From the NCBI RefSeq assembly GCF_000003815.2, contig NC_049979.1, positions 7,395,105 to 7,459,104 on the forward strand: DNA of 64,000 nt, in the 5' to 3' direction. Source of the stretch: Branchiostoma floridae. Its lineage: Eukaryota > Chordata > Leptocardii > Amphioxiformes > Branchiostomatidae. A model generated the notes under the pieces. The model ran no database searches. It had not been told where the DNA came from and worked only from the letters and a program-made list of their open reading frames with translations. The position numbers and the translations under genes are program-made. Within the stretch, counting starts at the first letter, position 1. Each line of letters starts with the position of its first letter. Below are positions 10,085-63,626 of this stretch, piece by piece.

Positions 10085-13000
10085 TTAGGACTCTGCGTCG
10101 GCCTCCGATTGTCTCTTCTGCTTCACTAAGTAAACAGAATCTCGTCTGAGCTTCGCCAAAAACCGAGTGGCTGCAATATCCTCGTCTTCCTCTTCATCTT
10201 CTTCTTCCTCGTCATCTTTGCCATTCATATGGCGGAATTCTTCCTCTTCCTCCTCATCTTCTTCATCATCATCATCGCCGTCATCGTCGTCGTTCTGCGG
10301 GTTATAGAACCTGACAGAAATCCCGGCAGAGTCAGTGAACTCCACAGCACCACCGTGGTCCTCGCCCACCGCTCCTTCCTCCTCCTCCGCCTCTCCGATC
10401 GCTCCCTCCACGCCCTCCACCTCCTCCCGGAAGACACTCTCCATGTCATCGTCCTCCTCTTCCACCAGCTCCTCCGGCGTGTCACCGTCGGCATTACGGA
10501 CGCTCCTCCTGGCGCCGCTTCGCAACAGGAAACGGGCAACCTGCGGGAGAATGCAGCTTAGTTTACATCTTCTACAATGTATATAGTGAGAACAATAGAA
10601 GACGTACCACACACTATATCACATCTCAAGCTACATTTTAAACGTTACTAAGAAACGTTAAACATGACTAAAATCACCTTAGAAACCATGAGTACTGTAT
10701 TACGACCTTTTGTATCTATATGCCTGTACTTAGCCCGATAGGACATGATGTGCAATAATGTGCTATTACAATTTTAATTTATTGATACCATACGTGATTC
10801 TTTATGACCCTTTATCTAGACTTTCCATGCATGCATTTTTAAACAAACAATAACCCCAGTACATGATGAATTTGTCTCCGTAATGTTAAGACGATGATGG
10901 AAAAGCTGTGGACACAAATATTTGCTTCGGTGTCCTGTACAGCAATTATTCAAGATGATATTCAATATTGAGCCTGCGGCATACACTGTGTTCTAATGTG
11001 CTGAGGTATTATGATAAGGGTCCTGCACTTATGTTATCTCTGTGATTTTGTTGTCTTTACGCAATAAGGCGAAATTGGTGAATGGGCCCGGTGGGATGAT
11101 AACAATAACTGTAAAGCCGCTATACGCGTTGATATTACGATCGAAAGGGATGACTTCACATTTTAGCCCATACACTATAAGCTCCCCCATTCACCAATCA
11201 GTTGTCATGAGAGAGAAAAAAAATGAAATTGTTGACTTCGTTGCTAAACGTTTGGTGACTTCGTTGATAAAAGCTCATTGCTTCAACATTAATTTTGAGC
11301 CAAAACATCATAAACTCCCCCATTAACCACTCATAAGAAAGAAAAAAAGGAAGAAATTTTGTTCCATTATGACGTACCTGAGGATGTCCCTCGGCAACTG
11401 CGGCGTGGAGTGGAGTCCATCCATCCTCGTCCTGACAGTTCACCTTCGCTCCGTGCCGAACGAGCAGTTTCACGAAGTCAATGTTGCCGTCAAGCGCCGC
11501 CTGGTGGAGGGCCGTTAGTCCTGCAGCACGAGAAGATGTTGAGGGTCAATTTCGCAACTCCCAATTGAATACAACGGCAAAAATTAAACTTAAGTCACAA
11601 GCTTAATGCATAAAACAAGAAAACGACAAAACAAGAATTGTAAAATTGGCATTGCAAGCGATAATCGTTTCAGCTCAACTAATTCGCAGAGATGTTGACA
11701 ATAAACAAAGAAAATATCAGACTACTGTTGCCGTGACCAGGATTCGAACCTGGGTTATTGCGGCCACAACGCAATGTCCTAACCTCTAGACGATCACGGC
11801 GAGCTACATGCGATCCGATTGCTAGTGCCCGGCACTTAGTAAGTCAACATTGTGCTAACTTAGACATAGCAAACTAGAAACAGCAGAAAAATAGCACTCT
11901 CTTTAGGAAATCTTTGTCTCTGTGTGTTTTAAAGTTGTAAAGGATTGTTATCGAATAATAAGATTTTTAAAAAGTCATTTAAAGAATATTTCTAAATTTG
12001 TATAAATCTGTAGTTAAAAAAGAACGGTCGCACTGTCGTGATAATACACCTCCACAGCGATTGCCGTGACCAGGATTCGAACCTGGGTTATTGCGGCCAC
12101 AACGCAATGTCCTAACCTCTAGACGATCACGGCGAGCTACATGCGATCCGATTGCTATTACCCGGTACTTAGTAAGTCAACATTGTGCTAACTTAGACAT
12201 AGCAAACTAGAAACAGCAGAAAAATAACACTCTCTTTTAGGAAATCTTTGTCTCCGTGTGTTTAAAGTTGTAAAGGATTGTTATCGAATAATAAGATTTT
12301 TAAAAAGTCATTTAACGAATATTTCTAAATTTGTCTAAATCTGTAGTAACGAAAAAAGAACGGTCGCACTGCCGCGATAATACACCTCCACAGCGATTGC
12401 CGTGACCAGGATTCGAACCTGGGTTATTGCGGCCACAACGCAATGTCCTAACCTCTAGACGATCACGGCGAGCTACATGCGATCCGATTGCTAGTGCCCG
12501 GTACTTAATAAGTCAACATTGGAGTAAGACAAAGAAAACAAAGAGCAGTAGAAAATCTCTCTTTGGGAAATCTTTGTTTCCATGTGTATTAAAGTTTTAA
12601 AGGATTGTTATATAATAATCAAATAAAAAAGCCATTTTAACGGAAATGTCTAAATTTGTCTTAATCTGTAGTTACTAGAAAAAAGTACGGTCGCACTGCC
12701 GCGATAATACACCTCCACAGCGATTGCCGTGACCAGGATTCGAACCTGGGTTATTGCGGCCACAACGCAATGTCCTAACCTCTAGACGATCACGGCGAGC
12801 TACATGCGACGACACGAATGCTGCCCCGTATTTATGAACAAATCGCGTGGCAGTGTTTATCTAACGACAGGTGCTGTTGTATCAGTACTGCGTCTATAAA
12901 CAGTCGTGGGCAGATCTCCGCACATGTTAAGTTGTGGATCATGTTTATTTTGAGGTCGCCATGTGTGGTTTGGGTATTTATTAAACAAATGGAAGGTTTG

Positions 13001-25000: not shown

Positions 25001-28000
25001 ATAGACCCCAGTCTCTGTAGTACAAACAGGAAAAAACAATGTGTTCGAAACACGCTTAACGGTACTTCATATAAAGCTGCCAGCTCAAACACATTTGTAA
25101 GGACATTATTGGGAGTGACGGTGGAGTACATGTCAACACTGGATCCTGCCAACATTACCTCCCCCCTCCGAAGATCATCAATAATCCGCTTGGTGAAAAG
25201 AATGAAAACTTGAGTATATAAATATGCTGTTAATTTGTGGAAAAGGTTCGCCTGCCGCTCCTGGTACAAAATGGCTCATGTAGCTAGATGTTCCTTAAGA
25301 AAATACGATCGATGAAAACTACAAAAGAGCCACATCGCTGGTGAAATAGGACAGGCCACATGACGTTTCTGCTCCATTCTCCGGAGGAGCTCTCCGGAGG
25401 CGGATTCCCGTGACGACACCCTACGTACCAGCCAGAGGTACACGTGGTATCGTGATGGCAGGATTGGGACTATGATGCACGTTTCATCCCCCTGTGTTCC
25501 GTGAAAAGTATTGCTGCCATTTCAATGATCCCCATTGATATATACACAACGTACACATGCATACAAGTCATACAAGGTTAAGAAACGACAGGGTTGGCAT
25601 TCAAGGACATACGAGGGGCATTCAATAAGTAATGTCCCTGACCCATTTCCCATAGCAGGAGATTAATGAAACTTGGTACAGTTATTAGTCTTTCTCTACA
25701 TAGGAACCACCCAGAGTTATGCATTTCTCCGATCATTTGATGTAGCTCTGGACACCGTTCTTGTAGGACATCCCAGGTTGGTCCTCCGACAGGTGCCTCA
25801 TCAATGGCAGAAGAGGGACGACCAGGTCTGGGAGCTGTTTCCACAGACTTCCGGCCTTGTTTGAATTCAGGATGCCAGCGTTTTACAAGGTCATATGATG
25901 GGACATCATCACCATAAGTTTTTTTCATTTCATCAAAAGTCCCTTTTGGTGTGCGTCCTTTCAAATACAAAAACCGGATCACTGCGCGACACTCAACTTG
26001 CTCCATTTCACACCTGGTCCATTTCGCACCTGACTAAGTTCAAACACCAGTAAATCAGTAACCACAATTAGTTCAGAGCTGTTTTTTGCAACATAACCCA
26101 TAGAGATATGACTCATTACACATGCAACATTTCATCTAGATCAGACAACTGGCAGTGGGTCAGGGGCATTACTTATTGAATGCCCCTCGTATATACGAAG
26201 TCAGACTGTGATTTATGGCTTATGACATAAACGGTCGGACAGACAAAACAACGAAGCTTGTCTGCGTGGGATGAAAAGACAAATGAAAGATAAAGGGCAA
26301 AACTGTCTTGCTATCCTGACGTGCCCTGTAGTGAACCCACACGTGACTGGCAATGCCAATAAGGTTGACCCAGTTCTGTGGGTGGTACGATTGTCATCCA
26401 ACGCCACCGTGACGGCCTCAAATATATACACATCGATACTTCCATCCTTTTGCACTCCACCAAACGTGCGTCGACACGTGTTGTGTGGAATCGGGTGGTT
26501 TCACAAGCCAAGACCCTTTGTTACACTTGGGTCATTGACCCCTGGTTTGGGCGGGCTCTCAAGAACCCAGCTTCAACTCTCCATCCTCCTCAGGGTAGTA
26601 AGGGAGGGAGCGGTTATGTCTTCGTTCTCTAACAGCCGACGTCAAGTAATAGAACAAATTCAACAATGGGTTCACGATGGGTTCATGTAGAACATCAACA
26701 AGCCTAGGCCACATGTTCAATCCGTTATTCTTTGACTCAAGGTCAATCAGATAAAGCTGTATCTATAAACGGAGCTGGTTTTCTGTCGTGGTGCCGTCTT
26801 GTCGTAACTAACGTCACCAGTTGAAACAAGCGCTGTAAATCGCTCCGGCCTTACATCATCAGTATGCACAGTGTGGGGACAGACACTCCAGGGAACGAAC
26901 ACGCCCAGCTGGAAAATGATTAAACTCCAAGCAGATCCTACAATGGCATAAGACAGTGCCAAACTGGCCAAGGAGTGTAGTCAGACAAGAGGTGTACATT
27001 TGCCGGTAGTGAAACACACCCCTAAGTCGGCTTCACTCCTCTGCCAGCTTTTTTACTATCTCATGCTACCGTAGGATCTGCTTGGAGATTAGAAATTGAT
27101 CACTAATACCGTGAAAAGTACAGTAATGTTGTGTTGTTGCTTCCTCCCATTACCTCTACCCTCCATCTCTTGTCAGCATTTCATCCCGACGTACCCAGTA
27201 GTAATAACGAGTTGAGGTCTATTTGCCACCGTCAAACATGGTAACGCCGTTATTTATTTACTTCGCGAGGTGCTAATGAAGATCTTCAGGGCAATTCGGA
27301 GGACCATTTATAACAGGAACAGTGAGGAGTAATAAAGGGCGCATACCAAACTTCTTAGAGTATCACATTAATAAAACTTTCGTACTCGACAGAAATATCA
27401 AGGTGCTGCCATACATGCACAGGACTACAAATCGGTTCCATGTCAAGAGTCCTGTTTGGCCAAGTGTTTAAAAACAATTCCTCACAGAAAAACCCGACAA
27501 AACAATAGTGCCGGTGTTTGTTTCGCCGCAGGCTACTCATTACTCTCTTAATAAGTAACTTGGGTACACGAGAGTTTACAATGGGAAAGTGGATACCGCA
27601 TTGTTTACATTCCGTGCCGTTGTCTTGTTCATAAGCTCTTGCTCCTTACACCTAACGTGCACAATAGGTATGTACTCGCACAGTAACACTTAATAAAGAA
27701 ATGCCTGAGGAAGAACGCACGTAAAACTGTTTCACGTCTTTGTAGAGCCCGCGCCGGAGACGTAATCCTTCAAACGAGATAAGCTCCCTAGGCTCGAAGA
27801 TATGCAGTCCTACATGGATCAGCTGATGTGAGTGCTGTTTAATCGCCCTCCTCCCCCATGCCTAACCAAACGATACGAAGCGCGTAAACAGTGGATCACG
27901 TTCTCTCAGGGAGGGAGGAGAAATGATCGATGTAACGTTAATTGGTCCCGCGGTACCAGAAAGGTATCGTTAGCATCCTCCAGGCGCTCTTACCTGTTCT

Positions 28001-38460: not shown

Positions 38461-38861
38461 CGATGGACCATTGGATCAAAACGTGTTTTAGGCGAAAGAG
38501 CTGTGTGCTCACAGCGAACGAGCTGTGTGCTCGGCGAACAAGCTGTGTTCACGCAGAAAAGGGGCTGCGTGCTCAGCGAACGAGCTGTGTTCACGCAGAA
38601 AAAGGCGGGGCTGCGTGCTCAGCGAACGAGCTGTGTGCTCACAGCGAACGAGCTGTGTTCACGCAGAAAAGGGGCTGTGTGCTCAGCGAACGAGCTGTGT
38701 GCTCACAGCGAACGAGCTCTGTGTTCACGCAGAAAAGGGGCTGTGTGCTCAGCGAACGCAGTGTGCTTACAGCGAGGGGGCTGTTACACCAGGCTGAAGA
38801 TGGCCGCCGATTGGTAGCCGCCGATCCGGCCGCCGATTCGTCATTAGACAAAACGTAGCAT

Positions 38862-40894: not shown

Positions 40895-41532
40895 TAAGTT
40901 TTCTAAACGTTTCGCAAAACTGAAGTTCTAAGTTGTAGCAAATCGTCAATTTAATTAGGACAAGAACGCTCCGCAAACAGTCCCTTCACACTTTTGAGGA
41001 ACTGCGTACATATATGTGATGCTTTTGTCTACTACATGTATTATGCCAATACGCCATTTACGTCCATATCCCATTGTCGCTGTGAGCACACAGCTCGTTC
41101 GCTGTGAGCACACAGCTCGTTCGCTGAGCACACAGTCCCTTTTCTGCGTGAACACAGCTCGTTCGCTGTGAGCACACAGCTCGTTCGCTGAGCACGCAGT
41201 CCCTTTTCTGCGTGAACACAGCTCGTTCGCTGTGAGCACACAGCTCGTTCGCTGAGCACGCAGTCCCTTTTCTGCGTGAACACAGCTCGTTCGATGTGAG
41301 CACACAGCTCGTTCGCTGAGCACGCAGTCCCTTTTCTGCGTGAACACAGCTCGTTCGCTGTGAGCACACAGCTCGTTCGCTGAGCACGCAGCCCATTTTC
41401 TGCGTGAACACAGCTCGTTCGCTAAGCACGCAGCTGCTTTGCTGTGAGCACACAGCTGGTTCGCCGAGCACGCAGCCCCTTTGCTGTGAGCACACAGCTC
41501 CTTCGCTAAAACACGTTTTGACCCAATGGTCC

Positions 41533-45366: not shown

Positions 45367-48300
45367 TTATTCAGCTGTTGCCTTCACTCTCCTTTTCCTG
45401 ATGTTGGCATCATTGTCCTCTTCTGCATCCCCCTCCTCTGCCTCCTCCATCTCTTCCTCCTCCTCATCTTCCTCCTCCTGGTCCTCTGTGGGTGGTCTGT
45501 CATCCCGCCTTACCTTCGTGGGGGGCATCTCCATCTGGACCGGTTCATAGAAGCCTTTAGGTGGGGCTGCTGGGCACAGACAGTCGGTGATGAAGACCAG
45601 CACCTGGAACAACAACAACGACAGGTGATGAAAGTACAGCCCATCCAGAGGGAGCAACTGGGATGTGTGAAGTAAATGTTTCTTGTGTACACCATTCACA
45701 GTAACACTTGTGTTATCATAACATTATATGGCCACGCCCGGACTCACAAGGGTGACTGATACCGAAAATTCCAAAGTCATGGTCTTCATCGACATCCGAT
45801 GGACAAACATCATCATCATCATCATCAGGAGGACCATGACACACCGCCACACATGCTGCTAAGTGTTCACAGTAATTGGTTTAATGCTTTCTTATTTGTT
45901 GACTGCTCTTCTGACTGACTTTACTGGTCACCAATACAAAAGTCCAGCATAATTAGACAGGTTCTTAGCAGGACAATATAAGCCAAAAATCACTTTTGTC
46001 TGTTTCCTGTTCAAGATGTTAGAATTCTTTGCGACAGAAAAACACACACACAGACTCTCTTTATGTGACTTGAAGTGAAATACTTTCAGAGATGACTTGT
46101 TTTGACCACTACAAATACTTAACGCACAATGAGTAGGCAAACTACAAACCTCAAGATTAGTCTTTGTGCCAGGCTAATTTGGAGTAGAGTGCCAACTCAG
46201 GGAGTGGGGCATACGTACTGTTGCTATCCCTGTCTATTGGTTTGCTATCACCTCACACTGGGTGTCAGTCATTCATGCAACAGTGCAAAGTACATTGTAT
46301 CCTTTGAATGTTTCTTTATTCTAGTGGTACTGTCTTCTGTGAAAAGCATTTAAGTTTGTCATTGAGGAAGTCACGTTTAAATGTTTGCTTGCAATGTATG
46401 TGTGATGGGGAAAGTGTGACCAATGACAGTGTTCTGTTACAGAGTAAAAAGGGACTCTGGCAGTAATGGCCATACACTACAGGAAATAAAAAAATGGTAA
46501 GAAAATACGGACAACTGACTTTGTGGTACATATGTATTTAGCTGGATTGAAAAAAAAGTAAACATCTGTGTGCTTGTATAATTTGTTTGCATGTACATTT
46601 GCATTTCACAATTAATTGTGCATGAATATGACTAGAATCAAATAAGATAGTAAGCTGTTTTGGCATTGTTGTTGCATCCTAAAGTTGACCTTTCAAAAAT
46701 AATTTCCCCCAAGTACCCATCCTTGACACACTCTTTGATTTCCTAAGAGGTATTTTTCTGCGATGACTACTGGGGAGAATTGCTCACATGAAAACATGAA
46801 AGCACTTGAAACACTGTGAGGTTCAAAAGACAGTGTTGGTCACTTCTGGCTGCTATTCTGTCATGTATACCTGAGTTTACACATCATTAACTGCATCACT
46901 TTGAACCTCGCGGTAGGAGGTCAGGGGCAGCTCACACTGTACACAACACACGCAGTCGTGGGCAATTCCAAGTACAAAGTACTTAATGAGGGATTGAAAG
47001 GAGGGTTGAATGGGGATGTTGTGTAAGTAAAAGCTTTCAAGTTGTCACGTCATTTATCACCACACCCTTACCTCCCCTGACGGTAACTTGTGTAATAGGA
47101 AACCCCAGGGTCAACTGCACACTGTCACACACACTAGCATGGGGATGTGCACTACTGACAAAAATGGTTCTCAGCTCAGTAGAAAAGGAATACTTGTAAT
47201 GGCTCATTATGATGGCTCTTACTTATGATACATTCTTTTTTAGGAATGGAAAAGCTGTCATCATATGGTCAAGACAGGCAATCTACGGAACCAAAAAATA
47301 CTTCTATTGACAACCTTCTGTACCCTTCCATGTGTGGTTCAATATTCTAATTTTTCATGAGGCAATATAGCTTTTAAGATTCTATCTATAAGATTCAGGA
47401 CTATTTGTAAAAATTTACTTTCTTCATTAAACTTTAAGTTAATCACGATAATTTGTATTAGAATTCTTAAGCGCTGGTCTGCATGTGACATTTGACTACA
47501 GGACCTTTGCAAGTTTAAATGTTTTCAAAACAAAGAAAGACCTTGCCTGGTGGTACAGGCCACAGTAGTTCACACATGATCATCTTACTACCATGAATTT
47601 GCATGCCTCTGTGTTTCACTAGAATATGACATGTATTTGCTATTGTAACATATTCATGCACACAGTCAACTCCGACTCTTGCTGGTGACACAAGTTCTGA
47701 GTTTGGATAATCACATCTTTACATGTTAATACAAAGATATTACAAACAAGTGGGCAATGACAACTCACCATTCCTATGAGAAGACCTGCGACAATTGTGA
47801 CAGCAGCAAATAGACAATAGGAGCCCCACACAGGTATACCGTAGTCCTCTGTGATGCTGGTATGTATGGTCTGCCGATGAAACAGAGGAGCAGCGTGAAC
47901 AATGCGGGCAGAAACTACAGGAGAGACAGAAGAACAGCGCACAGGAGCAGGAGCTAGTCAATACTCTGTGCTGGGATGCTACTTTGCTAGGGACTGCAGA
48001 CAGAAGCACAAATCTAACGACCGATTAACCATTCTTTTTTTAATGTTGTTGGCTAGACTTGCAGCATTTTAGTTCCGATGCTTGTATTATTTAGAGTTTA
48101 GTGACAAGGGATGATTTGGGGATTTTTCTGAGTTTAATGATTTTATCTGAGCATCGATATGAGCACACATTGATGGCATTAGCATAAACATTAGAAGGAA
48201 GGGCTGAACATTCAGACAATGGTGAGGAGCAATCTAACAAAGAGCACAGTGTTGGATGCCATAACCTGACCTGTTTAACCACACCCTCTTGCAGTTTTAT

Positions 48301-51300
48301 AAGAAACTGCAAGGGCCCTGTGACCCTGTGGCCAGAGAATGCTGTATACTTCTAGTACATACAACTCTTGAAGTCCCATCCTTCCCTAAAGCTCAACTGC
48401 CATCCTGTCTTATACCTCTCAGCTGACTTTTGAAAGTATGTAAATACTCAAGTATCGTATTCTATAACATTACATTCTGTTATGTTACAAAGCACACAAG
48501 AAATGTAAGGAAAAGTTTAAACATACTGACCCTGACAGCCATTGAGATCTTAAAAAGCCAAGACACACAGGACATGCTGTGGAAAAGACATACAAGTTAA
48601 CATCAGTATCAATAACTTTAAAACCAATGAAATACACATGCAATGTACTAGTATGTACAGCTCATTTTAAAATATTTTAGCCTGCACATTTTATCCATGA
48701 TAAGACATTAAACGATTTGATACTATGATAGATAAATGAGGAAAAATCTACATACAGAAATGAGTTGGGAGCCTTCCAGGACTCGACAGGCTCCACATTT
48801 TCCCACTTCTTATCATCCACGAAGCTGATGAAGTCGTCCTTGGTGCGAGAGCCTGTGTATTTACGGAACTCCCCATCCAGCACACTATGTGGGTGGAGAA
48901 TGTGAGAGACAATTGCAGCTAAAGTATCAAGGATGTTTCATTTGATGAAAGCAAAGAGTGTCATGTTTGTATGAATTCTTCAGATGGAAGGAAGCACAGA
49001 CAAAGACATATACATGGAAATACAGAACACCAATTGGTAATGAGACAACAGTGAATTTGTCCTTTCATATGAATTTGAAATATCAGGAAGGACAATTGAA
49101 ACCTGAGCAACAAAAGATAACACAGAACATATCATACTGACATATATGCTGCATAAGCCTCAGGGATACTTACTGGTAGATGGTTGGCAGAGAAGTAACA
49201 CCAAACCTGCCACTTAGTCCTGTAAAATACAAACATACATCATGAAGAAACACATCCACGATCATAGTCATACATTATCTTTTCTCAGCTTCATGCTTAG
49301 GGTCATGGCACCAACTGACAATGTACAAATTATCAAGAGGGGATATGCAAGTCAGAATTAGACATGACACAAGTGGTCAGAGTAAATGACTCCAAGTATG
49401 AGGTAGTTTATGATTAGAAGTCAGCTCAGGTAATCAATTAGGTACAGGTCCAAAATACTGGAACACAGGTGTACTGTATAGGACCTGTATCTAATTAGTG
49501 CAAGCCAGGCAGGATAACAGGTCAGAGGATGGCCACTTTGAAAAATAAAATTACTGTGAAATTGCCATAGCAGTCTCTGAGCCCCAGTGAGGGAAAAAAC
49601 AACAATTTTGTAAGGGTCAAATTTTTGTTGCATCATGTGTCTACCATAATTAAACACATTTATCTGTTCAAACATGCTTTTATCCTTATTGATGATTGCC
49701 TTTTAGTTTTCCTTGAACAAGTAGGTCAGGTACAGGTTCAGGTTCAGGTCCGGACCTGTACCTAAACCTATGTACTAGTACCTGTAAATTTATAAATTTG
49801 TTTAGGTACACATCTGTAATGAGGAGTTACACTAGTAGGTCTCTGTGCCTCACCTGCCTCCTCTGTCACATCCACCTTGCCCACCTGGATCTCCAGGTCC
49901 TCTCCCCAGTCTGCAAACTCCTCCCAGGTGGACTGAAGGTTACGGCAGGCCGGGCACCAGGGGGCGTAGCTGCAACACACGGCAGGTGTTAGAGAACATG
50001 TAAATACTGTTCAGGGAAAGCAGTGGAAGATTATCTACAATTATATGTCAATGTTCAATTCCAAAAGAAGCAAATTTTTTCTTGAAATCCACAAAACTTT
50101 CCCAAGCTTTTCTCACCTTACTGTCCAAGAAAATACAACATTCTTGCTTAAGTCATCCAAACCCTTTATTAGTTTTATACATGTATATGAAAATGGACTA
50201 TATTGGACAATTCATCTCCCACTGCATGCGGAAAATAAGTCAACACACCCATCAAATAGCTTAGTAGAAATAGATTTAGATTAGACGTTATTTCCCTTTG
50301 TATTAATCTATAAGTTTCATTATCCTTCTCTTATTAGTATACACTATACAACTATGTATACCACTGCTTTACTTTGTTTGCAATTAGCCCATGGGCATGA
50401 ACTTGCAATAAAGATTATTATTATTATCATTATTATTATTATTAATGGTCTATTGTATCACCATGTAGATGTGTATTCAACAAGGGTATGTATGCAACAA
50501 ACTCTTTTTTCCACTGGTTCTAACTTCTATCGGACACCTTGGTGTCTACTACATGAAGTTGTAATCTGCATCCATATAAACTTTTCCCTATGTGTTTTCT
50601 GTACCAGGGCAACATTATGGTCATTTTGGAATATGTACTTAGTTTCTCATTTAGGTCATTGACTCGTTCAGCCTGATTTTGGCATTTACATGGCGGAGCA
50701 ATTGGTAGTAACAGTGTTCAAGATTGAACTAGGTGTATACTAAAATGTAGACAATATCTAAATCAATCAGACCTGAACAATAAATCTTTACTTTTTATTG
50801 CAGACTGTTTTTTTAATTGCACACAAAATCATTTGAACCCCTGAAATATTGAGAGTATATTGAATTATTAGTCTATCCTATCAAGCACTGAATCTAATCA
50901 ATGTTACATGAATTATTCATTACATTGCCAAATTCTCTTTGATCTTATCACAACAATCAAACATCCAATATCTTTCATGCAAATTTCAATCCTTTTGAGC
51001 AGTAATGGCAAAGCTTTCTGCATAGCACCTTCCTCCAAGGAGGTTAGACCTCCTTGCTTCCTCTATACAATTGATACATATAGAATACAACACGGTGTAT
51101 TCCGTATCACCCGAGGTATCAGCCCACTGGTGGCGGAATAAATGTAGGAATGACAATAATAACAAGATGCCTTGCTCAATTGCACTGTATGGTGATGTAA
51201 CGTTACATTATTTTCGTCACTTGCAATTGGGTTTCAGGCATACATTTGCAAATTATAAAAGTTCTTTAATATCATTACAAGGTGTAAGTAACTGCTATTG

Positions 51301-51980
51301 TAACACTGAACTTCCTCATACAGTTCTGTTACTGCTGTAAAACCTGTAATGTTATATTACATTGTTACATTGTTATGTTACATCAAGGAAGGTTACAAGT
51401 TGCAAGTACAACTCACAACAAGCAAATATTATTATGACTGTCTGTATACTGATGTCATGGTTTGTTGCTAGTATCTGTGACCTTGCATGTATACTTCATA
51501 TTTTCCCTAGACGTCTATCTGCTGCCTACATACGTAACCCTTTAGCCGTTTGGGCTGATAAAACGGGAAATCGTTCAAGTTTGCAAGCCATAAAAATACA
51601 CGGGCTACACTTTTATTAAACGGTACGACACTGATTTTCATATTAGAATAATTATTGCATACACAGTAACACAAACAATAAATGTATATGGCTTAAACAA
51701 CTCGATACAAATGGTGCTTTACTTTTCAAATGCCCTGTACATGCTGTAATAAATTCGTAACGTTATGTGTTAAAGTGTGGGAGGGGGGCAACACAACAAT
51801 CTAGGCCACTTACAATTCTACCATCCATTCCCCCTCCAGCATGGACGCCCAGTTGTCTTCCGTCAGAATAACCACGTTTCTCTTGGCAGCGCCACAAACG
51901 AGAAGTTGAGCGGCGAAAAGGAGGACGTAAATCGCCATGAGGAAGGGCGGGCGAGCGTTTTCTTTCCTGATCGCCGCCAT
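45367..51980 (-). CDS. TMX1: thioredoxin-related transmembrane protein 1
   Basis: Seven exons: 51980-51814, 49969-49854, 49219-49174, 48884-48756, 48576-48531, 47870-47769, 45603-45367 (stop TAA). All have GT/AG sites and compatible phases and join to 280 codons, the same length as human TMX1. TMX1 is an ER membrane protein disulfide isomerase that acts on membrane-bound client proteins. Visible features are a signal peptide (about 1-31, LLFAAQLLVCG), a thioredoxin domain with active site W-C61-P-A-C64 and cis-Pro106 (SLPTIY), and one membrane segment at about 184-208. The palmitoylation-type D-C-L-C-P follows at 209-213, then a cytosolic tail rich in E/D ending RKRRVKATAE. The start is the ATG that opens the signal peptide (GGGAAAAAATGGCG); the frame stays open upstream but reads as non-coding. 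It lies about 1.3 kb downstream of MED6 on the same strand. Confidence 0.96.
45809..45828. repeat. (ATC)n microsatellite
   Basis: Run of CATCATCATCATCATCATCA in the last intron of TMX1. Confidence 0.8.
49425..49770. repeat. inverted repeat pair in a TMX1 intron (possible MITE)
   Basis: TTAGGTACAGGTCC at about 49438 faces GGACCTGTACCTAAACC at about 49752. Additional GGACCTGTATCTAATTA (about 49480) and CAGGTTCAGGTTCAGGTCC motifs lie between. The arms are short and redundant, so the element boundaries are uncertain. Confidence 0.4.
50390..50446 (+). repeat. LINE 3' tail with (ATT)n
   Basis: GGGCATGAACTTGCAATAAAG running into ATTATTATTATTATCATTATT. A polyadenylation signal followed by a simple repeat is the usual end of CR1/L2-like LINEs. 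Lies in the first intron of TMX1; no upstream coding part was found. Confidence 0.5.
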
Positions 51981-56723: not shown

Positions 56724-57418
56724 CGTGGAACGTACCAATGGCATAAGGTGGGGGGTTGCAAAACTGACTTCCTGCATGGCTAGTGCTGGCGGCACATGCC
56801 AGCACAGGCAAAGGGGATTTCCCCTGTGTTTTCCCTGACTCACCTTAGCTAAAAAGATTGTTTCGCGTCTGAAGGACTTCTCACGAGTTTTAAGGTTTCG
56901 CGTTGGGGAAACATGTATTTTTTTGCGTGGGGGGATAGATAGAAACATTGGGACATGGTGTGTTACATGTAGTACATAATAACAAGTGGGCGGGGGTTGC
57001 AAAAAGTTTCGACAACTGTGACGTAGTTTCCAACGACTAGTTTCCATAAGCTTGAGTTTCCACCACAAATAGAAGAGCTTACTTAGTCTTGTCATTTTCT
57101 CTGTTCACCTTGTTGGTGCCCTGTTCACTAACAGGTGGGATATCAACCACAGATATTTTTTGTAGCCGACATCCTTAATTCCTGTCACCGAGTATTTTCA
57201 CTCCAAGTAAACGTTTACGCCCTCGGGGTCAACTTGGTCAAAGAAACTGCAGGTTATCTCCCCTGGGTCTACCCCATTCAGTTTTCACCTGTATTTATAG
57301 GTGATGAGTCATTGGGACTCCGAGGGAAACTGAGAGAGAGTTTCATGACGATATTCACTTCATTTTCCGCAAGTAAACGACACAGTAAAGACGTCTATCG
57401 CAGTTCCCTTCGCGGAAA
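56724..57418. promoter_or_regulatory. shared 5' region between MED6 and the galaxin-like gene
   Basis: The start codons of MED6 (minus, 56723) and the galaxin-like gene (plus, 57419) are 695 bases apart and diverge, so both promoters and 5' UTRs must lie here unless there are upstream non-coding exons. No TATA box in a convincing position was seen on either strand. Transcription starts cannot be placed from sequence alone. Confidence 0.55.
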
Positions 57419-60400
57419 ATGGACACGCGACTCAGAACAGCCTACTTTACAGCCCTAGTCGCTGTATCCGTGAGCATGGTTTCCGGCAAAGGTGAGCGTA
57501 AATAATGCTTGTTTCTAAAATTATCCGTAACAGTTTAAACAGGACATAATCCGCTGTGTCGTTCCGGAAATTGCCAGGCCTCTAAAAATGAAGTTTTAAT
57601 TATGTAAAAGCTATAGAATTGCTTGTCTTCAAAACGTCTTCGGCGAAAAGGATATCATTATTACTACTAATGTTATTGGTGCAGATGCAAAGAAGACTTT
57701 TCGTTATCGATCTATATCTATGAACTTTAATGAAAAAATGAAAGTTTTCGGGCTACGTTTCTCGGAGCTGTATTCTCGGGAAAAGTCTGCCGTCAGGACC
57801 CGACGTTTGAATATAACCCACCGCCCTGTATGTGTCAACTAACCCACCGTGTTTAGAAACATATTCACAAAAACCTGCTGAATGTTCAATTTCTTTTGGG
57901 TAGTTCTAGTGTGAAATGTAACTTTTCATATTCACGGGTGCTACATCGTGGAGCCGGAAAAGATTGACAGAGTCAAGTTTTAACTTCCGACTAGAAACAG
58001 GAAAGAAGTTAGGTGTATCGTAAACTTCTTTGTTGAACTTCCCTTTTTTAATAGCTGTAATAGATGTTAGTTGCTTCCGCCAGCTTCGTTACTTTCGCTT
58101 TTTTGCAGCTATTCTATTATTACAACAATGACGTGTCGGGGTTACCAGCAATTACAACGGATACATATATATATATAACTATTGTTGCTTCCGCCATCCA
58201 TTCGCTTTTGCGACTGTTCCAGTATTAATAGTGGCAATCCCCATAAGTCATTGTGGTTAATAATAACCGCAATTACTTATCGGGATTACCAGTGATTACA
58301 GAGGGATAATTTTTTTACTAATGTGGTACAGACCGCTTCCTCTTTTTTGGGGTCACAAGAGGTCAGGTTAAGACTGGCGCTTCTTTTAAAATCTATTAGA
58401 TAGTATACCTGTAGGCCATAGAATAAGATCAAGAGTCAGAGGATCCGCAAGGGCGGGCTTTTTGTGGTCCTCTCGGCATTCACTAAACGAATGTTATTGT
58501 CACTGCTTCCGTCGTGGTCGTGCCAATTTTCAATTTTATCCGATACAACTGTCAGCTGTTGTCTTGCTGAAAGGGAAACTTCCGCTTACTGGTAATCCTG
58601 CGAGTTTAAGTACGATCGATAGAGGGCGCTTTTTCGTGGACGATAGGCACTGTTGATTAAGCGTTTAATAGACTAGTGTGGTCTTCTTTACTTCGTGGTC
58701 TTCTTTACTTTAGAGTTGATTGTAGCTCTTTTGTACCCTGTATAGCCCTGTCCCAACGTGTCTTTGGTGTGACCAAGAACATGTACATGTATGAGATGTT
58801 TCATGGTAAGATATGACGCCAGAGTAATTTTTAAGGTACACTGTACATGTGATACACTACAATTCTTGATAATTTGGAAGACAACATGTGTGATTGCAGA
58901 TGTAGTGTCAGGTGTGCCACAGGGCTGCCCCCCAGGCAAGAGGCTCTGTTTTAATCCTGGGGGTGATCTGAGCCAAAACACATGCTACAATCCATCGACT
59001 GAAAGATGCTGCGATGGGATTCCCATTGCCAGGAGATATGGAGAGAGCTGTGGTGAGTACCACCATTAATGTGAGCAAACTCAGCAAAGACAACTTGAGG
59101 AAGCTATGTACTCAACAGCATTTATCTGTTTGTTTATCTGCCTAGGTAACAGGGCAGTTTTACAGTGCACTGGAGTTAGGAATGATGTCAGAAGGCTTGG
59201 TGTTTTTACTTAACCTCTGTCTCATCATATATGGCTACCAAATGAATAAAATCTTGTACATGTGTAAAGAAGGAGAAAAAAACAGCAAAAAAACGCCCAG
59301 TGACAAAAGGACCTTTGAAGCAAGTTGGCATTTTTAATTCTAATCATCTGTACATGAATGTCATAATAATCAAAGGGCCACCAAGACTGCTGCTCTTGTA
59401 TGTCAAGCACACAGTATGACTATGAAATACTATTTTACACATACAACTCCATGTAAACATATGTACATTCAATGTACAGGTATCAAATAATATTAACATG
59501 TATGTAACAACTTCAAAAGAACACATTGCAAGTTCTTAGCTTTTTTCACTGGGTATTTGGCTCTATTTTACCACAGTCAGATAATCTGATAGGATAATAT
59601 AAAGACCAAGAAAAAAAAGAATAAAAATGATGTTATCTGTTCAGCATTAACATGCAAAGTAATCTGTCAATATCTGTTCAATGACATGTTCAATGACCCT
59701 GTTCTTCACTGATACAAAGTACATGTAGGAGACATTCAGTATCCTGTTGTTAAGTAAAATGTTGTTCCTTGTGTAGCTGGTCCTGACTTGAAATTCTGTG
59801 GCGCAAAGAAGTACAACTGGACCAGTGGGGAATTGGACTGCTGTGGGGGGGAAGCCCATGGTGAAGTCTACAACACGAAGCAGTCAACATGCTGTTCAGA
59901 TGGGATCTCCTCTGTCATTCATGAGGTCAAGGAAGGTAATTATCATAAGGCTGAGGAACTAGATGGCACAAGAGCATACATGGACCCAATTGATGTCCAA
60001 GCATCTTCAGAAGACTTGTAACCACAAGTATCTTAGCACTGTGAACCCTTCATGCTGGCTGAATCTTGTACTTTGATGGGTTTTCCCTGTCATCCTGAAA
60101 GACAAGAAAATAATACAATTCATGAGATGTTGCTGGACAGTGTACATCAGACAATTGCAATCAACAGGAATTTACAAGCAATAAGATCACACATTAGAAA
60201 TGATGGATGTTGGTATTGATTAAATATTCATCACTCGTATCAATCTGTTGCTGTGACTGTCACTGTCACTTGTGTATATGTAAGCAACATTGATAATTGT
60301 ATTCTATGATGTTGCAAGGAAGAATTATTTTGGTCAGATAATAATGTTACACATGTATGTACTTTCAGGATTCCACTGCTGCGGTACTGACTACATCAAC

Positions 60401-63400
60401 GGTGCCACTTACAAATGCTGTACCACCAAGTACGACCATAAACAGCCAAAACCTTACAACTTCCTACACTACATGTGCTGTGCCACTCAACATGACACCA
60501 AAATCTCACGCTATATGCCAACAGTGGTAAGATGAAACAATTTGTTTGCCCATGCAACAATAAGAGAAACCTCAACATGCTTTCAGAAAGCTTTACGAGG
60601 GGCGTGCAATTAGTAATGGTCCTGACCCATTTCCCATAGCAGGAGATTAATGAAACTTGGCACAGTTATTAGTCTTTCTCTTCATAGGAATCACCCAGAG
60701 TTATGCATTTCTCCCATCGTTTGATGCAGCTCTGGACACCGATTTTGTAGGACACCCCAGGTTGGTCCTCCAACTGATGCCTCATCAATGGCACAAGAGG
60801 GACGACCAGGTCTGGGAGCTGTTTCCACAGACTTCCAGCCACGTTTGAATTCAGGATGCCAGCGTTTTACAAGGTCATATGATGGGGCATCATCACCATA
60901 AGTTTCATTTATTTCATCAAAAGTCTTCTTTGGTGTGCGTCCTTTCAAATACAAAAACCGGATCACTGCGCGACACTCAACTGGTTCCATTTCACACCTG
61001 GTCCATTTCGCACCTGACTAAGTTCAAACACCAGTAAATCAGAAACCACAATTAGTTCAGAGCTGTCTTTTGCAACATAACCCATAGAGATATGAATTAT
61101 TACACATACAAAATTTCATTTAGATCAGACAACTGGAAGTGGGTCAGGACCATTACTTATTGCACGCCCCTCGTAAAACTACAATCTTAAACATCAGAAT
61201 GCATTCCATGGGATATCTTAAGTAACATTATACTGGCTACTTAGTATGTAGATACAGATACAGGTCTAAGTTGACATGCGTTAAAAGTAGTTATCCTCTG
61301 TTCTGACTTTAGATTTGAAATAGTAGATCTTTGATAGCTTTTAACGCAAGTCAACTTAGACCTGTATCTGTATCCGTATCTAAATACTTAGTAGCCAGTA
61401 TAACTGCCCTTCTTCTTAACACACCAGCTTTGAATGACCTAATAGTAATATACAATCTCGAGCTTTGCTGTACATTTTGTGATCCTTTCTACATACACTT
61501 GAGTCTTCATAATATGTACTTTGTGTTGAAGATGCTAGAAAGGTGATTAAATGTTTCACACAAGTGCTCTTCTCATTTGACAGGACATTACTGACAACCT
61601 GGCAACCTGTTGTGGACTTGACACCATGTACAAGGGAGATCCTGACATAATGTGCTGCAATGACAAGATTGTCAAACAGACGGGTGAGTTTATCACACTG
61701 ACTTCCTGTGACGTGATCTGTACACGTGCGAGATGCACTTCTGTGACTCGGGTACAAGTAAGTTTACATAGTGTGCAGTGTAATTCAAACATACTCAGAC
61801 ACTATATAATTTTATCAAATGTTCCCCTCTGTTGCTAAAATCATATCTACAAAGGCTGACATAACATATTGCAGACAAAAACTTGAAAGGAGCTTGGTAA
61901 TAACTTAACCATGTCTTTTGCACCTTTATGTTGTGGTGCACATACAACATGTATGTAACATACATTAGTTTAAGGACAGGAGAAGGGAAACTGAGTAGGT
62001 AATGAAATAAGAATAAGTTTATGTCTTTTTGATAGTAAGTAAATAGCTAGTAAATATGTACATATTAGGAAGTGTTTTCAGATTGTATGTTGCTTAAGTC
62101 TCAGAAAATGTTCTTACTTCTTGGAAACAGACTGATGTCACAAATGCCAGTGACTCAGCCCTTGTTTGATCTACATTTCCTGCTAACTCCACGCAAACAA
62201 ATCAGAAGTGACAACACTGGCCAAACTGCTCAGTTATTTGGTTGTCAGACTTTGCCTCTTGCACCTTCATAAACATTCATAAACATAAATTTGTACAGTT
62301 ATGTACATGCACATCTTGACTTAAGCCAACAATCATGTCCATTGGTTGCACGCCTTCTGACAGTAACATCAAATGATGTCTAAGCAACAGATCCAGCAGG
62401 TCAATAAAGCCAACTGAATGTACATCGATCATTGTGTTCTCCGATCTTGATTATAGTGGTAACATTAACAGTGTTTTTGTTCTTTACTTAACTTGCTCAA
62501 TTTCTCTAACTGAAATAATGAACTGTGGTGTTGCATTGAAAAGGCCCAGGGCTTCCAGATATCAACTGTTACTTGATCTTGTGCACAATCCACAAACATG
62601 ACATGGAAATGTCAGTGACAGGATGTGCACAGGATATAAAATGTGCGACTACACCACATCACCCCACAATAGCTACACGTACACTCTCCAGACTGAACTT
62701 GACTGAGGACTGCTTCAAAAGACGTTCTAAATATGTGTAAGACATTCAGTTTCCAAGGTGTAAATGTATTTCTGATGTGTGTACTGGTGTTTCTGATAGT
62801 GGGACAGGGCTGCTGTGCAGACCACGGGCTGTTCGACAACTCAACCCACATGTGCTGCCAGGGGGAAAAGACAGTCAAGCGGAATGAATGCTGCCAAGGG
62901 CAAGTCCATTCCCCTGAAGAGGGGAGGACAGCATGCTGTGCAGGGACAGCATACAACCCAGACACCCACTCCTGCTGCCAGGACACAGTTGTGAATGGTA
63001 ATATCACACTTTCTGTCATTTGCTGACAGCTACATGTACATGTATGTCATGTCTGTCCCAAATTGTCACCTTTAATCATAGTCTTCTACATTCTAAAAGG
63101 CAAATTTGGTCATATTCTTTACCTTTTTCACATTTCTACATGTTCTTACTTTTCCCTATATACTAGTATTAAAAGAAACATTTTCCCTCCATTAATGATG
63201 AAGTTTTCCATTACTGCTACCCACAGGTACTGGTCAGTGTTGTGGAAAGGCTGTGATGGACCCCAACACGGATTCCTGTTGTCAAGGTAACATTACCCTC
63301 AGCGGTAGCCGTACTTACAAAGGACTGTATCATTTTCTGTTTTCAATTTATTTAAACATTTTTTTACTATCTTTGTTCAGTTGTATTTCTGCTATGTTGC

Positions 63401-63626
63401 TGTGCATGATATCAAAGACAAATATGGATAAAGGCGTACATGTGGTGCAGAAGCTGATTTTATGTACATGGATGTTCAACAGACACCATTGAGCAGAATG
63501 CCAGTGTGCCACAGACCAGCCCCTACCATGGATGCTGTGGCTCCCACTCTATGAACAACCAAACCCACACATGCTGTGCCAGTACAGCAGTGCCAAAGGG
63601 AGTGGGGAGGACCTGCTGTGGTAAAA
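57419..63626 (+). CDS. galaxin-like secreted di-cysteine repeat protein (3' end beyond window)
   Basis: Eight exons: 57419-57491, 58900-59052, 59777-59935, 60369-60526, 61584-61683, 62800-62997, 63227-63286, 63483-63626, all GT/AG bounded and phase-consistent (348 codons so far, no stop reached). Exon 1 encodes a signal peptide (MDTRLRTAY, hydrophobic FTALVAVSVSMV, then SGKG). The rest is built of about 18 Cys-Cys pairs spaced by 9-20 residues. The motif CCxGxxYNPDTHSCC (for example GTAYNPDTHSCCQD, VMDPNTDSCCQ, CYNPSTERCCDG) is the signature of galaxin, the coral skeletal organic-matrix protein. Sequons NWT, NST, NAS and NQT suggest N-glycosylation. No membrane segment is seen. Most internal exons have phase 1 at both ends, so repeats could multiply by exon duplication. 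The last exon may end at 63620 or 63626 (better donor GTAAGT). Function is not known from sequence; an extracellular matrix or secreted structural role is inferred. Confidence 0.8.
60596..61173 (-). mobile_element. mariner-type deletion derivative, 578 bp, copy 2
   Basis: Lies in intron 4 of the galaxin-like gene, flanked by TA (60594-60595 and 61174-61175). Ends are CGAGGGGCGTGCAATTAGTA on the left and its near complement on the right. The minus-strand frame from 60990 (MEPVECRAVIRFLYLKGRTP, PRPGRPSCAIDEA) is the transposase helix-turn-helix region with the same internal deletion as the copy at 25612-26189. Here it is closed by a stop after about 99 codons. It cannot encode an active transposase. 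Confidence 0.9.
61228..61403. mobile_element. short foldback MITE in the same intron
   Basis: TTATACTGGCTACTTAGTAT and ACAGATACAGGTCTAAGTTG on the left are mirrored by CAACTTAGACCTGTATCTGT and CTTAGTAGCCAGTATAA on the right. The arms are about 65-75 bases and cover most of the 176-base element. It lies 55 bases from the mariner derivative and has no coding capacity. Confidence 0.8.

Follow-up and report, generated by a model that had tools for sequence, protein, structure and literature searches.

We analysed a 64,000-nucleotide stretch of the Branchiostoma floridae genome (contig NC_049979.1, positions 7,395,105 to 7,459,104; hereafter the window) and describe a galaxin-like gene on its plus strand. 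Eight exons between positions 57419 and 63626 join in one frame of 348 codons without a stop; the borders, drawn from sequence and not from transcripts, were picked by eye and then positioned with a script. AG precedes seven of the exons and GT follows all eight (donors GTGAGC, GTGAGT, GTAATT, GTAAGA, GTGAGT, GTAATA, GTAACA and GTAAGT for exons 1-8). These borders and the single open frame bear out the eight phase-consistent exons proposed in an earlier model-made annotation of the same DNA (the first-pass annotation). Galaxin_repeat scores below refer to the Pfam profile PF24748, which has a curated cut-off of 28 bits.

57292-57299, plus strand: TATA-like site TATTTATA of presumed function, 127 bases before the start codon; a pattern search over both strands of the window gives 4 copies
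57419-57491, plus strand: exon 1, with the start codon and a probable signal peptide MDTRLRTAYFTALVAVSVSMVSGK; hydrophobic core with a mean Kyte-Doolittle value of 2.45 (best ten residues)
58900-59052, plus strand: exon 2, phase 1-1, single cysteines and one Cys-Cys pair, YNPSTERCC; no Pfam match alone
59777-59935, plus strand: exon 3, phase 1-1, two Cys-Cys pairs; alone 18.8 bits to Galaxin_repeat, under the cut-off
60369-60526, plus strand: exon 4, phase 1-0, three Cys-Cys pairs; alone 14.2 bits to Galaxin_repeat, under the cut-off
61584-61683, plus strand: exon 5, phase 0-1, two Cys-Cys pairs; no Pfam match alone
62800-62997, plus strand: exon 6, phase 1-1, five Cys-Cys pairs, YNPDTHSCC; alone 33.8 bits to Galaxin_repeat, over the cut-off
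63227-63286, plus strand: exon 7, phase 1-1, two Cys-Cys pairs; scanned as part of exons 6-8
63483-63626, plus strand: exon 8, phase 1-1, three Cys-Cys pairs; alone 23.8 bits to Galaxin_repeat, under the cut-off

Because the joined frame reaches no stop, the 3' end of the gene falls outside the sequence that was read; the window carries its 5' part, with exon 8 as the last exon recognised. Reading through exon 8 adds 16 codons before a stop, with intron-like codon use (-17.4 bits). Introns 1-3 and 5-7 are in phase 1 and intron 4 is in phase 0. The symmetric phase-1 exons of the first-pass annotation were thus recovered for exons 2, 3, 6, 7 and 8 (five of the seven after exon 1) but not for exons 4 and 5, which are asymmetric. 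The end of exon 4 and the start of exon 5 form the sole phase-0 pair, which supports their splicing to each other. When each exon was left out of training in turn, the codon score was above zero in seven of eight exons, a weak support given the small training set.

Cysteine pairs and the match to the galaxin family

The 348-residue product contains 41 cysteines. Thirty-six of them form 18 Cys-Cys pairs, in agreement with the approximate number predicted earlier, and the other five are single cysteines near the front (residues 34, 41, 53, 75 and 83). Successive pairs are separated by gaps of 34, 15, 16, 11, 18, 23 and 13 as far as the second exon 5 pair; from the join of exons 5 and 6 onward the gaps are 12, 12, 10, 13, 11, 10, 11, 18, 11 and 12. 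Two arms of the regular part, including their two Cys-Cys pairs, span 25-33 residues. The Y-N-P-T arm, a galaxin hallmark according to the first-pass annotation, was described there as YNPxTxxCC; the strict form occurs twice only, in exons 2 and 6, and the remaining arms are looser. Composition shuffles of the protein gave a mean of 4.2 Cys-Cys pairs and a maximum of 10 (n = 2000), as compared with the 18 observed. At the DNA level, stop-free stretches with at least three regularly spaced pairs were found 3 times in the window, always within the galaxin-like gene, and in none of 20 first-order Markov simulations. With at least two such pairs there were 10 stretches, 6 in the gene and 4 elsewhere, whereas the simulations averaged 1.9 and never exceeded 3.

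The whole protein matched Galaxin_repeat with 93.7 bits (E 1.2e-26), the best stretch being residues 241-348. Three shuffles that preserved the cysteines scored 31.9, 27.8 and 26.4 bits, and three full shuffles gave no match. Cysteine spacing alone can therefore reach the cut-off but not 94 bits, and since the cysteine-preserving shuffles reached just 26.4-31.9 bits, about 60 bits of the match come from residues other than cysteine. This surplus is confined to exons 6-8, which scored 94 bits; exons 5-6 scored 45 bits, and a piece running from exon 4 into the beginning of exon 6 scored 30.6 bits. By their residues, exons 6-8 are a clear member of the galaxin family. The profile match together with the shuffle control upheld the galaxin-like assignment, and we are highly confident that the gene belongs to this family. 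A better match to a mucin-like or trypsin-inhibitor-like family, named in the first-pass annotation as what would speak against its assignment, was not found; the whole protein had no other Pfam match up to E 1, and a mucin, a trypsin-inhibitor-like protein or another cysteine-rich family was rejected.

Other searches returned no further assignment. The whole protein had no match in NCBIfam, a prokaryote library, and none to a PDB chain up to E 1. Sub-pieces gave weak matches to Vp24_capsid (E 0.031) and IGFL (E 4.5), both under their cut-offs and rejected. The protein of exons 6-8 found no relatives in viral or genome contig collections, neither of which is meant for animal genomes, by a single-sequence scan that detects close relatives only; the genome contig scan gave seven pattern matches, none of them confirmed.

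The first-pass annotation had also suggested growth of the gene by exon duplication. The intron phases fit this idea, but the similarity of the arms is barely above that of within-arm shuffles: out of 2000 such shuffles, 311 reached it over all 17 arms and 126 over the last ten. An alternation of two arm types was not significant: out of 2000 permutations, 733 reached it over all arms and 555 over the last ten. Exon-exon DNA similarity was short. Three of the 28 exon pairs attained the reporting score, and exons 2 and 8 alone, over 20 bases, exceeded their 60 shuffles; this near-repeat lies at 58912-58931 (SGVPQGCPP) and 63504-63523 (ASVPQTSPY). Exon duplication is plausible on these comparisons but only weakly supported, and it would be old if true.

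Known relatives and the probable nature of the product

Entries from Ciona and Oikopleura that are related to galaxin were named in print in 2009 (PMC2726143), so that galaxin-like genes are no novelty among chordates. As far as the published descriptions go, these entries are chordate galaxin relatives like the lancelet gene. Relatives have likewise been reported in polychaetes, molluscs and sea urchins (PMC6824150), and the family PTHR34490 is reported to hold 623 InterPro proteins across several animal phyla, other eukaryotes and archaea (PMC12419799). Galaxin trees are reportedly poorly resolved. High-similarity galaxin sequences are described as restricted to Scleractinia (PMC2726143), and galaxin has been called coral-specific (PMC4890752). 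The view in the first-pass annotation that galaxins are mainly cnidarian thus agrees with these papers for galaxins proper, which are placed in stony corals only, but not for the related genes already noted in chordates and other animals. A search of the open part of PubMed Central (PMC), with sequence database annotation outside its scope, found no paper on a lancelet galaxin among those listed, and passages of PMC9570262, PMC5216023, PMC3247206 and PMC3599201 describe no such gene. The gene is a new member of a known family, and a chordate galaxin relative is unsurprising.

Similarly to Galaxin and Amgalaxin of stony corals, the lancelet product has a probable signal peptide, about 12-13% cysteine and two Cys-Cys pairs per unit of about 30 residues. 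Its cysteine content is 11.8% overall and 12.6% after residue 23; overall values of 12.4% for Amgalaxin and 13.4% for Gfgalaxin, and a galaxin unit of around 30 residues with two di-cysteines, are given in PMC2726143. Unlike the coral proteins, it has an irregular front half with single cysteines, five N-glycosylation sequons and an isoelectric point (pI) of about 6 (6.1 after residue 23) instead of 4.5. The RXRR endoprotease site, reported to mark galaxins sensu stricto (Conci 2019, PMC6824150), was absent from the 348 residues seen. An acidic domain, the mark of Acropora galaxin-like 1 and 2, was absent from the part inside the window, where Asp plus Glu reach at most 6 per 30 residues and 7 per 40.

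The calcarins of calcareous sponges are reported to have 10-23 di-cysteines, typically 10-15 residues apart, with single cysteines near the ends and a signal peptide (PMC12419799). Most of them have been tied to spicule formation, in contrast to the lancelet gene, which is known here from sequence alone. The same source describes large sponge proteins with fibronectin type III (FN3) domains, in which a di-cysteine region of about 200 residues lies between FN3 domains, whereas the lancelet di-cysteine chain follows the signal peptide. PMC6824150 cites a structural resemblance between galaxin and usherin; for the portion of the protein covered by the window, Pfam gave no match to laminin or FN3 domains of the usherin type.

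The product is probably secreted. Ten residues separate the presumed signal peptide from the first cysteine, and the five sequons suggest a glycoprotein. The probable signal peptide, the many short-spaced Cys-Cys pairs and the sequons together suggest a secreted, disulfide-held glycoprotein. In AlphaFold predictions reported for galaxins and sponge calcarins, the first cysteine of each pair bonds the second cysteine of the preceding hairpin (PMC12419799). By analogy, each Cys-Cys pair of the lancelet protein may sit in a short β-hairpin, and the hairpins may be disulfide-bonded to their neighbours to form a stiff ladder. Such a protein would most likely play a structural part in the matrix of an epithelial surface, for example that of the epidermis and its coat, and not act in mineralisation. 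The Ciona relative is reported to be expressed across the whole epidermis and a Riftia relative to be body-wall specific (PMC2726143; PMC2175520), which favours an epithelial role. By this analogy, a structural epithelial or matrix role appears somewhat likelier than not to be the right one. With similarly moderate confidence, we read the locus as the 5' part of a galaxin-related gene encoding a probably secreted, di-cysteine structural protein of a surface or matrix.

Several results weigh against this reading. One of the cysteine-preserving shuffles exceeded the Galaxin_repeat cut-off. The stretch covering most of exon 3 to exon 5 scored 31.1 bits and exons 2-3 scored 20.7 bits, no better than cysteine spacing alone. 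Exons 1-5, scanned as one piece of 214 residues, gave no Pfam match up to E 10; this is presumably a filter effect, since a shorter part reached 31.1 bits. The front half thus looks galaxin-like in its spacing, and its putative kinship rests on sharing a gene with the back half. The left-out codon scores were near zero for exon 1 (0.7 bits) and exon 4 (-0.9 bits). A single-sequence AlphaFold model of exon 6 was useless (predicted local distance difference test score 42) and gave the hairpin ladder no support. The function is assigned by analogy alone.

Two other roles have precedents within the family. An antimicrobial role has been proposed for the squid galaxin EsGal1 (PMC5216023), and the lancelet product could similarly be a secreted protein that kills or shapes microbes at a mucosal surface. 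Its richness in cysteine and probable secretion would suit this role; the parallel with EsGal1, however, is only an analogy, and we consider the role improbable. A biomineralisation matrix protein, as in corals, would agree with the Galaxin_repeat match and with the reported occurrence of galaxins in coral skeletons and of calcarins in sponge spicules (PMC4890752, PMC12419799). Against it stand the differences from coral galaxins in RXRR and pI, the acidic domain not found in the part inside the window, and the reported existence of relatives in species that have no skeleton (PMC12419799, PMC2726143). This role is very improbable. The gene probably encodes an ordinary surface or matrix protein and is not a sign of a skeleton. 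As one more galaxin-family member from outside the corals, it fits the published view that the skeletons of corals and calcareous sponges later recruited secreted di-cysteine proteins whose functions had been different (PMC2726143, PMC12419799). The gene alone leaves that view unchanged, as chordate members were already in print.

A possible internal start before exon 6

The sequence directly upstream of exon 6 raises the question of whether one gene or two lie at the locus. Two features are relevant.

62635-62641, plus strand: TATAAAA, a possible internal TATA box of presumed function, 98 bases before the ATG at 62733
62733-62799, plus strand: in-frame upstream extension of exon 6 from this ATG, signal-peptide-like MCKTFSFQGVNVFLMCVLVFLI; a possible alternative first exon

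Two transcription units, or an internal promoter, would yield a second secreted galaxin-like product starting at 62733; exons 1-5 would then be part of a longer isoform or of a separate gene upstream. The hydrophobic core of the extension is pronounced (best ten residues, mean 3.43). Outside the gene, an equally hydrophobic in-frame start accompanies only 3 of 7285 AG sites, and only 1 of the 2759 that show 9 or more pyrimidines out of 16; the exon 6 site shows 10. The run nevertheless overlaps the pyrimidine-rich end of the intron, and the internal start was noticed among seven acceptors before its test was made. The codon score of 62733-62798 (-13.6 bits) falls within the intron range (mean -9.3, standard deviation 7.4). 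The placement of TATAAAA upstream of the ATG would suit a promoter, but TATAAA has 53 copies in the window on both strands, and one so placed is not very surprising. An upstream gene, if there is one, could terminate at the poly(A)-type hexamer at 62403; the other plus-strand hexamers from 60500 on lie at 61546 and 63168. Exon 5 was rejected as a last exon, since its read-through is intron-like in codon use (-21.6 versus a mean of -19.4), so that such a gene would lack a convincing last exon, although alternative ones are possible in intron 5. The two halves of the gene do differ, exons 6-8 fitting the profile by residues and exons 2-5 by spacing only. On the other hand, the donor of exon 5 and the acceptor of exon 6 share a phase, and the Cys-Cys spacing stays at 12 across the join. 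Exons 5 and 6 spliced together scored 45 bits versus 33.8 for exon 6 alone, a gain that cysteine spacing alone could give.

One gene is the better reading than two, with the internal start kept as a possibility; separate transcription units or an internal promoter we hold to be rather unlikely. Slightly less likely still is a single locus that encodes two galaxin-like proteins, both secreted: a long form beginning with exon 1, and a short form that has its start codon at 62733 and is driven by an internal TATA-type promoter. If this were true, the signal peptide of the short form would be coded by sequence that is spliced from the long transcript as the end of intron 5.

Other elements of the window

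Intron 4 of the galaxin-like gene carries a transposon-derived fragment, which lies outside the gene product.

60589-61180, strand undefined: fragment of a mariner-like element within intron 4; its inverted ends span 70 bases and are 81% complementary

A frame of the Mos1 helix-turn-helix type (PF17906, E 1.3e-10) is found in this fragment on the minus strand, and a second frame of the same type lies at 25581-26033 (E 3.3e-08). A TMX1-like thioredoxin transmembrane gene (45370-51887, minus strand) lies about 5.5 kb from the galaxin-like gene, in head-to-head orientation. Its single frames had no Pfam match, and two joined peptides matched PDB 1x5e at 2.1e-18; an APWC motif lies at 49968. Further away, an ankyrin-repeat gene (10088-11545, minus strand; ankyrin match at 11201-11545) continues into a long acidic stretch, and presumably resembles a protein phosphatase 1 regulatory subunit. 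Four tRNA-His (GTG) genes form a tandem array at 11728-12809 on the minus strand, which repeats about every 333 bases. The TMX1-like, ankyrin-repeat and tRNA-His genes are in keeping with an animal genome, although they are no proof of a chordate or a lancelet. Minisatellite arrays are present at 38492-38775 (periods 22, 42 and 110) and 41083-41507 (periods 42, 64 and 128), and their units resemble each other; both are open in several frames, the former on the plus strand and the latter on the minus strand.
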